From assembly GCF_002115805.1 (NCBI RefSeq), contig NZ_JFKC01000002.1, positions 62,001-126,000 on the forward strand: a stretch of 64,000 bases of DNA, in the 5' to 3' direction. Below are positions 1,269-62,097 of the stretch, piece after piece. The notes under the pieces are model-generated. The model did no database searches. It saw only the letters and a list, made by a program, of their open reading frames with translations, and had not been told where the DNA came from. A program made the position numbers and the translations under genes. How positions within the stretch are numbered: position 1 is the stretch's first letter; each line of letters opens with the position of its first letter. The DNA comes from Marivita geojedonensis. GTDB taxonomy: Bacteria > Pseudomonadota > Alphaproteobacteria > Rhodobacterales > Rhodobacteraceae.

Positions 1269-1310
1269 TGAGAATATCATCCGGCTTACCTGATAGCGCC
1301 TACCAAGCTG

Positions 1311-1380
1311 ACACAGGAGAGGCCGATCGCATCGGCGCCGAAGGAGCAACCCCCCGGAACCTCTCAGGCAAAAGGACTGT
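1311..1380 (+). ncRNA. Glycine riboswitch (gcvT motif), single aptamer
   Basis: The conserved core elements appear in order: GGAGAGG, GCCGAAGGAGCAA and CCTCTCAGGCAAAAGGAC, with GGAGAGG and CCTCTC able to pair. This is the glycine aptamer signature. A second full aptamer, which most glycine riboswitches have, is not apparent. The following 110 bases contain a perfect hairpin CCTGCC-ATCC-GGCAGG (1445-1460) and a helix next to the ribosome binding site. The switch is 108 bases upstream of a FAD amino-acid dehydrogenase, so glycine probably induces its own oxidation. Confidence 0.9.
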
Positions 1381-1407
1381 GATCGGCAAGGGCGTCTGAA
1401 GCGCGCT

Positions 1408-18679: not shown

Positions 18680-19627
18680 CTATGCCGCCAACAGATCGCT
18701 CTCCAGCTTCTCAAACAACGAGACATCTTCCTCGGGGCTTTCGAACAGATGCCCGTAGGTGTCCATCGTCATGGTGATAGAGGCATGTCCGAGCAGTGTC
18801 TGGATCTTCTTGGGGTTCCAGCCCTGCTCGATAAAGAGCGACGCCGCCGCATGCCGAAGAGCATGGATGCCGAACTTCGCCTCCCCGCGATCGTTCACGA
18901 TGCCGTTTGCGACCAGCATCGGCTTGAAGATACGATTGTAGATGTTGGAGTAGTTCTGCACCCGCCCAGCGCCATTCGGGAAGACGAGCTCCAAATCGTT
19001 CTCCAGAGCCTCTGAGCGCCACGCTGAGAGCGTCTGATGAACAATTGGGGCCATAGGGATATCGCGCAGCCCAGCGCGGCTCTTGGGCGCTCCCATCGCC
19101 CCGAATTCGTCCGCCCGCTTCGAGACCTTGATGACCCGACGATCGAAGTAGACGCAGTCCCATGTCAGCCCGCGCAGTTCAGAGATCCGCATGCCTGTGA
19201 AGATTGCGGTGATGAACATCGCGCGATGGCTTGCGGGAGCGTTTTCGATGATCAGCCTGATCTCGTCTTTGGTCGGGATAATCTTCTCATCTTCCGCAGT
19301 TCGAGACTTACGACGCAGCTTCACATCCAATGCCACATTGTGGGTGATCCATTCCCGGTCGACAGCCTCTGAGAGGATCGATCGCAGGCTGACCATGACC
19401 TTCTTTACATGAGCCCGGGACACGCCGTCATCGAGCATGTCATACATGAAGTCGCGGACATCGCTTCGGGAGAGGGCTTCGAGCAGAAGATGACCTATCC
19501 TCGGGTCAATGTGGATGTTCACGTGGCTGCGATACGCCTTGAGTGTAGACCGCTCGAGTTCGTTCCGCTCGCTGGTCTTGAGCCAGCTTTGGCAGGCATC
19601 GGAGACGGTCTTCGTGGATATGGGCAT
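18680..19627 (-). CDS. Tyrosine recombinase/phage-type integrase
   Basis: A 315-residue site-specific integrase with an SAM-like core-binding domain (about residues 5-100) and a complete catalytic domain: arginine in TGMRISELRGL, H-x-x-R in HALRHAAAS, histidine in LLGHAS and tyrosine nucleophile in MDTYGHLF. It lacks an N-terminal arm-type binding domain. It is divergent from the recombinase-like gene across about 175 bases. It probably mobilised part of the neighbouring accessory DNA; no matching att repeats were found. Confidence 0.9.
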   Translation of the reverse strand: MPISTKTVSDACQSWLKTSERNELERSTLKAYRSHVNIHIDPRIGHLLLEALSRSDVRDFMYDMLDDGVSRAHVKKVMVSLRSILSEAVDREWITHNVALDVKLRRKSRTAEDEKIIPTKDEIRLIIENAPASHRAMFITAIFTGMRISELRGLTWDCVYFDRRVIKVSKRADEFGAMGAPKSRAGLRDIPMAPIVHQTLSAWRSEALENDLELVFPNGAGRVQNYSNIYNRIFKPMLVANGIVNDRGEAKFGIHALRHAAASLFIEQGWNPKKIQTLLGHASITMTMDTYGHLFESPEEDVSLFEKLESDLLAA

Positions 19628-19803
19628 ATATGAAACCTCGCTGAATTCTCTGAGCTACATTATCTCATATTCATAGTCGGATGTCGGCCCAAAAATGCGT
19701 CCAAGACACTGTATTTGCTAATATTTGTGGGTTATTGTGGGGCGCGCGCGTGGGCCTGTCCGGGATTTCCCTGCGCCGGTTCGAGAGCAGTCAATTCCGA
19801 GAC

Positions 19804-20535
19804 ATGGAGCGCAAAAGCATGGGGTTCCTCCAAGGGTATCTCTTGATCACATCCGGTCCGCGACATGTCGCAGACATCACGTCAGAACCTGCAGCCCGTG
19901 CGCAAATGAATACTCTGCGATATGCCGCAGACCGACACCGAGCGCAGGTCGACATTGTGGGCTGGGATTACGCGCGTAAGATCAGGTCGCTTGATGACAT
20001 TCCGTGCCTCGTAGATCTTCTGAAAAGACGTGCGGGGAATGCCGGGACATCCGTCTCTCAACCGCACCTTGTTCTGGACGACTACAATCGCTTGTTTCGC
20101 GCAACGACGTCCCAAGCAAGACGGGATGTCGTCCAGTTGCTCTGGCAGCATGCGGATGTGTTGCGGGATGTGCGAACCGGACAGCCCTTTAATGATCTCT
20201 CTGAGCGCTTCCGATACCGGCTCATTTCTGAGCGCCTGGCGCCGTTGGGCTTGGGGAAGAAACCCGTGCAGCGATCCGAGGCAATGCGCCAGCAGCAAAC
20301 GAGTGCTGCGCGGGAAACGTCCATCAAGGCACGAGGCAAAGCCGCAAGGGATGCCGCGGTTCGATTGCAGGCCGCCTATTTGCAGTTTCAGCAACGAACA
20401 CCCGGAGGCAGCCTCAAGGCGTTCATTGAAAGCGACGCCTCAAATGAAGTGGTGAACTCCTGGGGTAAGCCGTGGTCTTACCGAGGGGCAGCGAGAGCAT
20501 TGCGGCAGGTGTCTGTTGGCAAAGACCAGATCTGA
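19804..20535 (+). CDS. Recombinase-like protein of unknown type
   Basis: I do not firmly recognise this protein. The visible part from GFLQGYLLITSG through a middle stretch (HLVLDDYNRLFRATTSQARR) is laid out like a serine-recombinase N-terminal domain. The C-terminal WGKPWSYRGAARALRQV resembles the helix-turn-helix end of such recombinases. A canonical R-x-S catalytic start is not clear. ATG 19804 or 19819 are both possible starts, and the frame is open further upstream. The last 40 codons plus the structured 3' region recur, degraded, at 21200-21720. Confidence 0.5.
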   Translation: MERKSMGFLQGYLLITSGPRHVADITSEPAARAQMNTLRYAADRHRAQVDIVGWDYARKIRSLDDIPCLVDLLKRRAGNAGTSVSQPHLVLDDYNRLFRATTSQARRDVVQLLWQHADVLRDVRTGQPFNDLSERFRYRLISERLAPLGLGKKPVQRSEAMRQQQTSAARETSIKARGKAARDAAVRLQAAYLQFQQRTPGGSLKAFIESDASNEVVNSWGKPWSYRGAARALRQVSVGKDQI

Positions 20536-20605
20536 CCGGACGGGATCAACTGGGTCGCAGTTTGGGGTTATCAAAGGTTTGGAAAGGGCTGAAATCAGCC
20601 TGAAT

Positions 20606-20683
20606 AACTCTCCGGGAAAATCAGCCTGGAATGTGGGTATTCAGGAGTGAAACTTGGTTTTGGAGGTTTTTTCACGGAGAGTT
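20606..20683. repeat. Inverted repeat AACTCTCCG/CGGAGAGTT, copy 1 of 3' element
   Basis: A 9-bp perfect inverted repeat, arms 60 bases apart, lies 70 bases after the recombinase-like gene. The same arms occur at 21404-21460 after the degraded second copy, with different sequence between them. Confidence 0.65.
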
Positions 20684-20780
20684 CTGGTGCCCTTGATCAG
20701 GCCCAACCACCACAATATACTGTTCCGAAATGGGTGCGGCATCCAATATGTAGGCAAAACGTCCCGCGGAGCAGCGCTTT

Positions 20781-20874
20781 ACCCTCCTTTCTTTATACTT
20801 ACTCCAGATAGAATTCCTTCCCCAGTCTTCTTCAGCTTCTTCTTCGAGATAGAAAGACATAGAGAAGGGGGGGT
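20781..20874. repeat. Second stem of the 3' element, copy 1
   Basis: ACCCTCCTT (20781-20789) can pair with AAGGGGGGGT (20865-20874). In copy 2 the corresponding arms read ACCCTCCCTT and AAGGGAGGGT and pair perfectly. The sequence around the left arm (CCCGCGGAGCAG before it, TTACTCCAGATA after it) is strongly conserved between copies. Confidence 0.55.
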
Positions 20875-20880
20875 GCCCTG

Positions 20881-20981
20881 CAGCTGACCTCCGGGGTGGG
20901 CTTCAAAAGCGATAACCGGCACCAGCTGACCTCCGGGGTGGGCTTCAAAAGCGACAACCGGCACCAGCTAACCTCCCGGGC
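20881..20981 (+). repeat. 42-bp tandem repeat (2.4 copies)
   Basis: Two 42-base units (20881-20922 and 20923-20964), each beginning CAGCTGACCTCCGGGGTGGG, differ at one base and are followed by a partial third unit. A diverged single unit occurs after copy 2 near 21670. It continues the 3' element of the recombinase-like gene. Confidence 0.8.
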
Positions 20982-21189
20982 TATGAAGCAATGACACATA
21001 GGGCAGCCACGGAAAGCGACGAGGTTCCGTGCTGCATCCGTTCCGGGGTTAGATCACGGGGGCGCTCAGGCGACCGAGGAGGGGTTCCGCGCGGTTTTTC
21101 GAGGGAAGAGGGGTGCCAGAGCGCTGAACGGGCGCTCAGTGAGCCGCTCCGCGGCTCTCAGGGGCTCTCTGAGGCCGGAGACTCCTTCT

Positions 21190-21360
21190 GTGGTGAGGGA
21201 GGCCATTGACAGCGATGCCTTGGATGGAATCAGTGCCTCGGACGAACTCCTGAACACCCCGGGACAGCTATGGTCATACAGAGAGTCAGCGATACCGTTG
21301 CGGCAGGTGTTTTTTGGTGAGAAGCAGACCTCTACGGAGAGGCAGTTCTTCGTCGGATTG
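21190..21360 (+). pseudogene. 5'-truncated second copy of the recombinase-like gene
   Basis: The frame ending at 21360 encodes IDSDALDGISASDELL followed by GQLWSYRESAIPLRQVFFGEKQT. This aligns with the C-terminus of the 19804-20535 product (IESDASNEVVNS, GKPWSYRGAARALRQVSVGKDQ). Nothing matching the rest of the protein precedes it. It is followed by a diverged copy of the same 3' element, so it is a remnant of a duplicated unit. Confidence 0.55.
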
Positions 21361-21403
21361 TGACGCTCGTGAACGCGTCTCAAAGGCTGCAAACGCCCTG
21401 AAA

Positions 21404-21658
21404 AACTCTCCGCGAAAATCGGCGATTATTCTGGGGTCTGACGGGTTTTATCGGAGAGTTTGTGCGCCTATCGGCATTACCGATTTATTCAACATCTTGA
21501 GGAAATGGTTTTCAGGAATACAAGATACGGCGTGTCCCATCCCGCGGGGCAGTGCTCTACCCTCCCTTCCTTTATCTTACTCCAGATACAATCAAGTCTC
21601 ATTCATTCACTTCATCTCCATTATTCCTGAAGTAGGAAGTATATTGAAAAGGGAGGGT
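21404..21658. repeat. 3' element, copy 2 (two conserved stems)
   Basis: AACTCTCCG (21404-21412) pairs with CGGAGAGTT (21452-21460), and ACCCTCCCTT (21559-21568) pairs with AAGGGAGGGT (21649-21658). Both stems are present in copy 1 at 20606-20874 although the intervening sequence has diverged. A CAACCTCCGGGGTGAGC segment follows, matching the tandem-repeat unit of copy 1. Confidence 0.6.
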
Positions 21659-22593
21659 TCACCCGCAGGTATCAACCTCCGGGGTGAGCCTGGGAAGCAA
21701 CAAACGGATGGGCAACTCAACCTCCAAGCACATGAAACGATGTCCACTGAGGTGGCTCCCGGGACGCGGAGAAGCGAAACCTAAGACACTCTCGGATTGA
21801 AAGTGCTGGGGTCGTTCAGTTGCCCGTACAGCGCGTCTCTGTGCTCCATGATGTCAGGGTGTGCGGAGAGCCTTGGAGGCCGTTCTACGGGGCGCTCAGG
21901 CGCTCGTGGAGGCATGTGGCGATCGAGAGGCTCTCCTTTGCCGACGGCCAGTGGTTTTGACCCGAGTTTCGGATTTGCGAGAAGCCACTTGCAGAGACTT
22001 GAGGCGCTGCCGATGTCGCGGCAATCGAGCGATAAGAGTGCCCCCTTGAGGACCTCTGTTTGAAGCTGTGCTTCCTGCAAGGATCATGTTTGTCACGGCG
22101 TGGTGTTTCTTCATTTGCCGCCACCTGAAGCCTCATGCTTGTAGAGACCAAGTTGCTTGCTGGATGCGCCAATTTGAGCGGTGCGCCCGTGTCTTGGCAG
22201 CTAATTTAACGCCAAGTTGACAAAAGTTGACACGGAATCGGCTTTTTCTGGAGATCACGCGGTGCCCGCCTCTCGAAGACAGTCGTGCTGCCAGTGTGTT
22301 CTCAACGTTTCGCGGCATCACATCGTGTTCGTGAAGGCGGCCATTCATCTCAAAGGCTAAGTCCAGATGCGAACAGCGCTTGAACTGTTCTGGTCATCTG
22401 CCAAACCCAAATACGCACCCTGCTTTAATGCTCAATCTCAAGCGCCGCGTTTCATTCAAGGTTTCAAATTGCATATACCACCCCTGTCCTTTGCATATAG
22501 CTACGGACAGGGGCAGATATTACCAACGCCATACACATAGAGTAAACGCGCGCATGGGCTGCGACACCTAGCACAGTGCAAATGTTGGGCCAC

Positions 22594-24863: not shown

Positions 24864-25280
24864 TTAGATTTCCTCGGACTTGTCGGCAGCAAGCTCGAAG
24901 ACAGAGATCAGCGTGCGCTTCAACTCTTCAGTCCAAGGGATGTCATAATCCACTAAAGCCAGGTGGTATGTTTCCAAGATATCCTCTTCCATCTGCGACA
25001 GATTAGGCCGCATGAACTCGTCGAGCGTCATCCAGATTTCCGGGTGGTATTCGCGTAGTGCAATTTGCAGAAACCTGCGGGTGTCGACTTCCAAAACTGC
25101 CGATAGAGCTGGAATGCGGCTGATCGGAACCTTGGTTTCGCCGGTCTTCATCATCGACAGGGCGTTGGGGTGGGCGAAACCGGCAGCTTTGGCGATCTCG
25201 CGTTGTGTCTTGTCACTGTTCTGAATCGCGTCGCGAAGGAAGTTTGTCGTCGGGGACGTTGCGGGGCTCATATTCTGCAT
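24864..25280 (-). CDS. XRE-type helix-turn-helix regulator
   Basis: A 138-residue protein with an N-terminal helix-turn-helix (KTQREIAKAAGFAHPNALSMMKTGETKVP, about residues 24-52) followed by RIPALSAVLEVD, as in Cro/CI-type repressors. An acidic C-terminal part (SQMEEDILETYHLALVDYD) may mediate oligomerisation. It stands alone beside the IS element. It might have controlled prophage or plasmid genes now lost. Confidence 0.75.
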   Translation of the reverse strand: MQNMSPATSPTTNFLRDAIQNSDKTQREIAKAAGFAHPNALSMMKTGETKVPISRIPALSAVLEVDTRRFLQIALREYHPEIWMTLDEFMRPNLSQMEEDILETYHLALVDYDIPWTEELKRTLISVFELAADKSEEI

Positions 25281-29455: not shown

Positions 29456-30088
29456 TTAGATTTCAATGGCCTCTGCAATCGCAAGGGCATCTTCCAGTTC
29501 AACGCCGAGATACCTGACGGTGCTGTCCATTTTGGTGTGCCCAAGTAGCAGCTGGACCGCCCTCAGATTGACGGTCTTCTTGTAGATTTGTGTGACTTTT
29601 GTCCTCCGCATCGAATGCGTTCCGTATGCGCTGGCCTCCAGACCAATCGACGTGACCCAATCGCGGACGATCCGGGCGTACTGGCGTGTCGAGATGTGCA
29701 GACGTTCATGGAACCGCCCCGGCCATAGGTACTCCGAGCTAACCATGAGCTCATCTTCCATCCACTTTTCTACCGAGGCGCGTGTGCCCTCGGACATCTC
29801 AAAACGCACAGGTTTCTGTGTCTTGCTTTGCAGAACCGATGCCCGTTCCTTGATCTGACCAGACGCCATGACGTCGACGACTTTCATCTTCACAAGGTCG
29901 CAGCCGCGCAGCTTGCTGTCGATGGCCATATTGAACAGCGCGAGGTCTCGATGGTTCTCGGCCAGTTCAAGTCGAACACGGATTGCCCAAACGTGTTTTG
30001 GTTTCAATGGCCGTTTCTGCCCGACGATCCGCCCCTTGTTCCAAGCGGGACGGAGTGCGCGAATGGCTGGTAGGTTTGGTGTTTGCAT
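29456..30088 (-). CDS. Short tyrosine recombinase (integrase family)
   Basis: A 210-residue integrase consisting almost only of the catalytic domain. Arginine is in SKLRGCDLV, H-x-x-R in THSMRRTK, histidine in LLGHTKM and nucleophile in VRYLGVE. Most tyrosine recombinases have a core-binding domain of about 100 residues, here reduced to a short leader. Such short forms are often plasmid- or transposon-borne. The start at 30088 is the first sensible methionine (MQTPNLPAIRALRPAW). Confidence 0.82.
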   Translation of the reverse strand: MQTPNLPAIRALRPAWNKGRIVGQKRPLKPKHVWAIRVRLELAENHRDLALFNMAIDSKLRGCDLVKMKVVDVMASGQIKERASVLQSKTQKPVRFEMSEGTRASVEKWMEDELMVSSEYLWPGRFHERLHISTRQYARIVRDWVTSIGLEASAYGTHSMRRTKVTQIYKKTVNLRAVQLLLGHTKMDSTVRYLGVELEDALAIAEAIEI

Positions 30089-30235
30089 GACTGATCCTCC
30101 GATCCGCCACACCCTCCCACAACGACAACCCGACGTTGACGATGCCACCATATCACAGGATGCTGCGTCGCATCCGAGGTCGGCTTGGAGCCCTCTTTGA
30201 CCGACGCTGCAAGACGCACGATTGGCTGCTTTCTG

Positions 30236-32682: not shown

Positions 32683-32757
32683 TGGTGCCCGGGGGCGGAA
32701 TCGAACCACCGACACGAGGATTTTCAATCCACTGCTCTACCCCTGAGCTACCCGGGC
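32683..32757 (-). tRNA. tRNA-Phe (anticodon GAA)
   Basis: The minus strand folds as a complete tRNA. Acceptor GCCCGGG pairs with CCCGGGC plus A-CCA, with D-arm AGCTCAGGGGTAGAGC, anticodon loop TTGAAAA and T-arm GGTTCGATTC. It marks the boundary between the accessory region and the core chromosome. Its 3' end faces the accessory side, but no second copy was found there. Confidence 0.95.
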
Positions 32758-38665: not shown

Positions 38666-38716
38666 CGGACCTGTTTGTCCTTGAAGACTTCTCTGCGCAA
38701 GGCTACCTCTTGCCGT

Positions 38717-38799
38717 ACCTCGGGGTGCCGGACAGCCGGCTGAGATGCGTGATGCGAACCCGTTGAACCTGAACCAGTTAACACTGGCGGAGGGAAGGT
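38717..38799 (+). ncRNA. TPP riboswitch (THI element)
   Basis: The thi-box order is complete: ACCTCGGGGTGCC, then GCTGAGATGCG, then ACCCGTTGAACCTGAACC, then GGCGGAGGGAAGGT. The 5' ACCT can pair with the 3' AGGT to close the fold. It lies 49 bases upstream of thiB and should lower expression of the thiamine importer when thiamine pyrophosphate is abundant. Confidence 0.95.
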
Positions 38800-38847
38800 C
38801 TGGATACGCTCCTGCTTTGCCCTCTCGCCGCAAAACAGGAGGATGCC

Positions 38848-61989: not shown

Positions 61990-62097
61990 GTTTGTCCATA
62001 GACCCAACCCTTGCCCCGTTTCAAGCGGTGCGGTGCCGCAGGTGCAAAAAGGACTTACGGATGAGGGTCAACTGGACTCAGGGACAACGCGGGTGAT

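Follow-up and report, generated by a model that had tools for sequence, protein, structure and literature searches.

A degenerate serine recombinase beside the integrase of a tRNA-Phe island in Marivita geojedonensis, with a duplicated set of paired arms at its 3' side

The window analyzed here is a stretch of 64,000 nucleotides from Marivita geojedonensis (positions 62,001 to 126,000 of the contig, C12 below), and it holds a tyrosine recombinase gene (int) head-to-head with a gene for a 243-residue protein, for which we use the name rlp (Table 1). On the rlp side, a unit of 800 bp, composed of the 3' end of rlp, two inverted-repeat stems (stem 1 and stem 2) and CCTCCGGGGTG repeats, is present twice.

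Table 1. Features of the int-rlp locus (window positions unless contig C12 is named)
Feature	Position	Strand	Basis or remark
int, tyrosine recombinase of the tRNA-Phe island, head-to-head with rlp	18680..19627	-	Phage_integrase match, 1.2e-24
int-rlp intergenic region with conserved int promoter-like motif	19628..19803	.	comparison of 31 loci
rlp, degenerate serine recombinase-fold protein (243 aa)	19804..20535	+	AF2 model, VIA, hhalign, joint alignment
Stem 1 left arm, copy 1	20606..20620	+	repeat analysis and arm identity
Stem 1 right arm, copy 1	20669..20683	+	repeat analysis and arm identity
Outer helix P1 left strand, copy 1	20760..20778	+	pairs with CCTCCGGGG block at about 20880-20899, approximate
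Stem 2 left arm, copy 1	20781..20789	+	
Stem 2 right arm, copy 1	20865..20874	+	
Two 42-bp tandem repeats with ACCTCCGGGGTG	20881..20964	+	98% identical
Remnant of second rlp 3' end, 5'-truncated, stop 21361-21363	21235..21363	+	66-70% DNA identity to rlp end
Stem 1, copy 2 (arms 21403-21418 and 21446-21461)	21403..21461	+	
Stem 2, copy 2 (arms 21559-21568 and 21649-21658)	21559..21658	+	
ACCTCCGGGGTG repeat, copy 2	21675..21707	+	
Intact tRNA-Phe(GAA), right end of island	32683..32757 (C12 94683-94757)	-	tRNA search result
Left island end, perfect 48-bp tRNA-Phe 3' fragment	C12 58250-58297, 3.7 kb left of the window		

The 3' part of tRNA-Phe occurs on the contig in three perfect 48-bp copies, all in the same direction (C12 8816-8863, 35591-35638 and 58250-58297), together with three integrase 3' ends (11706, 38743 and 80680). 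Three islands thus form a tandem stack, and every one of them has an integrase or an integrase remnant. The island adjoining the tRNA gene extends over 36 kb (C12 58.3 to 94.7 kb), with the two older islands stacked beside it, and holds int, rlp and the stems; as is characteristic of tRNA genomic islands, it has an intact tRNA at one end, a repeat of the tRNA 3' fragment at the other and an integrase inside. A preliminary description of the locus had proposed that the gene and its paired 3' structure form a mobile unit. The link to a mobile element holds, but since the island ends are the 48-bp tRNA-Phe repeats, the unit that is mobile corresponds to the tRNA-Phe island (about 36 kb); the stems lie inside this island and not at its ends. 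The same arrangement recurs at other loci: an intact tRNA-Phe was found no more than 20 kb away on the side of rlp in six of the large regions, and also in the Shimia aestuarii locus L119, and in seven loci a tRNA fragment of 48-49 bp follows the int stop at a distance of 31-3080 bp. In M. geojedonensis, 22 kb separate int from the left fragment, a greater distance than at other loci. In Maritimibacter, another tRNA is used (its identity was read by eye), with its 3' part 41 bp beyond the int stop. Searches for plasmid relatives by DNA or protein and for phage relatives by DNA found none. The island also encodes a second phage-type integrase close to tRNA-Phe (window 29456-30151, minus strand; PF00589, 7.9e-18), and the window contains a glycine riboswitch (1304-1389, plus strand) and a TPP riboswitch (38711-38812, plus strand), both matches at the Rfam gathering threshold.

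Scanning an integrase alignment against 84,980 species yielded 79 loci. The int product is 94% identical to that of Marivita sp. HCUG1433-5 (G299; locus L057, the same as L106), which is the nearest relative of the M. geojedonensis locus, and shares 60-75% amino acid identity with the products of about 30 further loci. Where the integrase reaches 60% identity or more (34 loci), rlp stands directly head-to-head with int in 28 and 3.2 kb away in one more, compared to only 1 of 20 loci with an integrase below 60%; these counts were made by hand, and some loci share a genome or species and are not fully independent. The intergenic region carries a promoter-like motif for int, a TATAAT-like -10 element with a GTCGGGC-type block, as read by eye in 31 compared loci. 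Upstream of the rlp start, a palindromic motif like TTTAYGTTGNNNCAACRTAAA was seen by eye in many loci, those of M. geojedonensis and G299 not among them, and may be an operator or binding site. Furthermore, the HTH_3-type protein encoded at 24864-25280 (minus strand) of the window resembles, by eye, one beside the integrase in two Aliiroseovarius loci without rlp (L120 and L125). The literature searched, whose coverage missed most subscription journals, held no description of an integrase paired with a degenerate serine recombinase, and this conserved pairing at tRNA-Phe islands is the most interesting and surprising outcome of our analysis.

The preliminary description had taken rlp to be a recombinase-like gene of 284 codons. 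A frame of that length does open at 19681 (plus strand), but relatives favor the ATG at 19804, which gives 243 aa. The assignment itself proved sound, in that rlp is a degenerate member of the serine recombinases. On its own, rlp matched nothing in Pfam, and no NCBIfam family above the cut-off. However, its AlphaFold2 model (pLDDT 91.4) has the fold of a resolvase-type catalytic domain: the best 27 VIA structural rows are all serine recombinases (Z 8.5 to 5.8), with a best Foldseek E of only 0.0026. Profile comparison of the rlp family (alignment A6) with active serine recombinases by hhalign agrees (98.5%, E 2e-15), and weak matches to the Recombinase domain were obtained for 22 of 26 family members.

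R8 and R45 are required for catalysis in serine recombinases. In a joint alignment, both arginines are replaced in all 26 rlp members, the R8 position being hydrophobic and the R45 position occupied by L, I or F. The nucleophile position is T in 18 members and S in 8, the R68-type arginine is retained in 24 of 26 and the R71-type arginine is present in 16 of 26; the family therefore lacks the full active site of serine, R8, R45, R68 and R71. Thus, alignment and structure model indicate that rlp is a former serine recombinase which has retained the resolvase fold and lost the active site. The dN/dS values of 0.16-0.45 in four close pairs imply that rlp is under purifying selection and that the protein is maintained. 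Distant relatives were found in searches of 296 and 395 Rhodobacteraceae genomes, several of them adjoining the same kind of tyrosine integrase. Three relatives (L098, L099 and L101, from G395, G421 and G279) adjoin an apparently active serine recombinase and not a tyrosine integrase. In L119 (3365-3442), a near-perfect 78-bp palindrome is located at the stop of a truncated rlp and could be the trace of an insertion element or an assembly effect.

The two neighbors in the pair have discordant histories. Between M. geojedonensis and G299, identity reaches 86% in the DNA of the left flank and 94% in int but falls to 41% in rlp, whose synonymous sites are saturated (0.58 in int); DNA homology drops near 19726, just before rlp. 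The L110/L113 pair repeats the pattern (int 95%, rlp 49%; dS 0.30 versus 3.8). This mismatch implies that rlp and its 3' segment were exchanged, or evolved separately, relative to int. In Maritimibacter sp. 55A14, 168 bp around the rlp start are duplicated (L094, 4792-4957 and 7738-7900), and the 2.8 kb of cargo that separates them comprises, by eye, a GntR-like regulator and an NCS1-like transporter.

Within the duplicated unit, the gene-end repeat is 104 nt long, with its copies 798 nt apart and 70% identical, and a 53-nt block containing the left arm of stem 2 is repeated at 83% identity. Stem 2 is enclosed by an outer helix, P1 (TCCCGCGG.G / CCTCCGGGG), and ACCTCCGGGGTG occurs three times in the locus. 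Marivita sp. HCUG1433-5 contributes a third, diverged copy of the stems; besides its intact rlp it has a truncated second rlp end and a single stem set, which lies directly behind the truncated remnant and not behind the intact gene. The co-duplication of a gene end with the stems, which the preliminary description had reported, was confirmed.

Taken alone, one arm of 9 bp around a loop of 60 nt would be unremarkable; what counts is the conservation. Across the three copies, the stem arms are 69-89% identical, compared to 24-48% for the stem 1 loop, 45-64% for the apical part of stem 2, 46-54% for the spacer between stop and stem 1 and 40-55% for that between stem 1 and stem 2, in agreement with the earlier observation that the arms were kept as the sequence between them drifted. 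The spacings are fixed as well, at 146/146/146 nt from a gene-end motif to stem 1, 18/18/18 nt from P1 to stem 2 and 21/21/21 nt from stem 2 to ACTCYAGA. The distance from left to right arm of stem 1 is 61/40/61 nt, the loop of copy 2 being 21 nt shorter; 21 bp correspond to two helical turns, a phasing seen in this one comparison. Unless selection acts on the arms, the combination of conserved arms, drifted loops and spacers and fixed spacings is difficult to account for.

A structured RNA co-transcribed with rlp, either a 3' UTR element or a small RNA, is a rather unlikely reading of the stems, with points in its favor: the P1/P2 fold is consistent in the three copies, with 89% of cells paired in stem 2/P1, one-sided changes often lead to G.U on the plus strand, the covariation score exceeds all slid controls (albeit for three sequences only) and the fold z-scores are -1.2, -1.6 and -2.5. 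However, among these three sequences stem 2/P1 has 3 pairs with two-sided change compared to 2.0 expected, a count reached in 154 of 500 shuffles, and stem 1 has none. Three sequences are few for the covariation analysis that the preliminary description had called for, and the arms are preserved mainly at the level of primary sequence. Moreover, the stems had no match in Rfam and no terminator was found behind them, which weighs against the structured RNA that had also been suggested for the 3' structure.

It is somewhat less likely again that the stems are a relic, i.e., a decayed inserted element or a former site without present function. Covariance models of stem 2 (R1; run on 17 genomes of the genus, 395 genomes of the family and 46 int loci) and stem 1 (R2; run on 38 sequence sources) detected only the three Marivita copies above chance. 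The sole weak family match of R1 (G128, E 0.008 per genome) is at chance level over 395 genomes and adjoins unrelated genes. This restricted occurrence would suit a relic, as would the position of the stems next to a truncated gene copy, but neither the excess of arm over loop identity in three diverged copies nor the fixed spacings would be expected of one. As the models match nothing outside Marivita, the stems are not a standard part of the int-rlp module; the preliminary description had tied them to the gene, a tie largely undone by rlp in about 30 other loci that do not have these stems. No rlp locus searched outside Marivita has the stems, which makes it unlikely that they play a general role in the module.

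A structured element of any kind behind rlp was also considered as a general feature and rejected, since neither windowed fold z-scores nor palindrome scores (p 0.23) differed from those of controls. Some loci of other genera do have different, repeated palindromes behind rlp (e.g., L116, L131, L121 and L113), and a CCTACGCGCG motif is commoner there than by chance, its count being reached in at most 2 of 200 random placements; these palindromes and this motif are suggestive and serve as a lead only. The motif CCTACGCGC lies behind rlp in 6 of 24 loci, and was noted as CCTACGCGC(G) at 0-700 nt in L109, L112, L113, L129, L131 and L137, in part inside imperfect palindromes some 100 bp long. L131 has two copies, one on either side of a gene for 90 aa, and this gene is likewise located behind rlp in L109 and L112. 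Direct repeats were counted in 4 of 29 versus 5 of 216 cases (p 0.013), a count that includes the case which prompted the test. That the stems are integron-like sites for gene-cassette insertion is nevertheless highly improbable: the head-to-head order of int and the first gene, the repeated palindromes, the CCTACGCGC motif, the direct repeats and the discordant int and rlp histories with breakpoints near the rlp start would fit, but the 20-kb regions contain no cassette arrays, palindromes show no overall enrichment behind rlp, the integron-integrase model (TIGR02249) gives int 42.9 bits where its cut-off is 265, and the island ends are tRNA-Phe repeats.

We consider it somewhat probable that one joint explanation applies, in which rlp is an inactive accessory or regulatory partner of int, the 800-bp repeat an old duplication and the arms a selected cis element of Marivita, likely DNA sites. 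In this reading, rlp, which keeps the resolvase fold, the long helix and the DNA-binding C-terminus despite its lost active site, would most likely bind DNA as a dimer and serve, as a type of directionality factor or repressor, the divergent tyrosine integrase, by which genomic islands enter the 3' end of tRNA-Phe(GAA). Genetic linkage, fold and active-site loss point to such a role, and accessory, repressor and immunity functions would fit alike. The 3' segment of rlp would have been duplicated long ago to give the 800-bp repeat, the second gene end having decayed to a remnant. The paired arms, which selection has preserved in each of the three copies, would constitute a cis element specific to Marivita, possibly as inverted repeats to which the recombination module binds or as a cruciform. 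With moderate confidence, we favor DNA sites over RNA, although stem 2 tolerates G.U pairs on the plus strand, which fits RNA and counts against the DNA-site reading. More tentatively, and with some doubt, the catalysis-free serine-recombinase scaffold may be an obligate directionality or regulatory subunit of the tyrosine integrase in a widespread island family of the Rhodobacteraceae, with the Marivita inverted repeats as its binding sites; if so, one recombinase superfamily would control the other. Excision of tRNA islands is usually controlled by small excisionases. A tyrosine integrase paired with an inactive serine recombinase would, if true, be an unusual solution to excision control, and the pairing would give a handle on island mobilization in an abundant marine family.

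Several known systems resemble parts of this locus. Like gamma-delta resolvase, Sin and the TP901-1 and phiC31 integrases (Pfam Resolvase/Recombinase), rlp has the N-terminal serine recombinase fold and long helix as well as a C-terminal Recombinase/HTH motif (GLRTxxGxxWxxxxVxRxL) and the R68-type arginine; unlike them, all members are devoid of the R8 and R45 arginines, have T or S at the nucleophile position and carry the additional conserved motifs TxGP(K/R) and DYAR. Integrons (intI, attI and attC arrays) likewise combine a divergent int with a downstream gene and palindromes, but int is not IntI by score, no cassette array was found and the ends are tRNA-Phe. Like excisionases and recombination directionality factors, rlp is a small gene beside int whose product is predicted to be DNA-binding and non-catalytic; it differs from them in its 243-aa resolvase fold, and genetic linkage is what ties it to int. 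A further parallel is with tRNA-integrating islands that carry a tyrosine integrase, which share the integrase inside, the 48-bp tRNA-Phe 3' repeats as ends and the tandem accretion, whereas here int is accompanied by an accessory gene for a degenerate serine recombinase and not for a small protein of the Xis/AlpA type.
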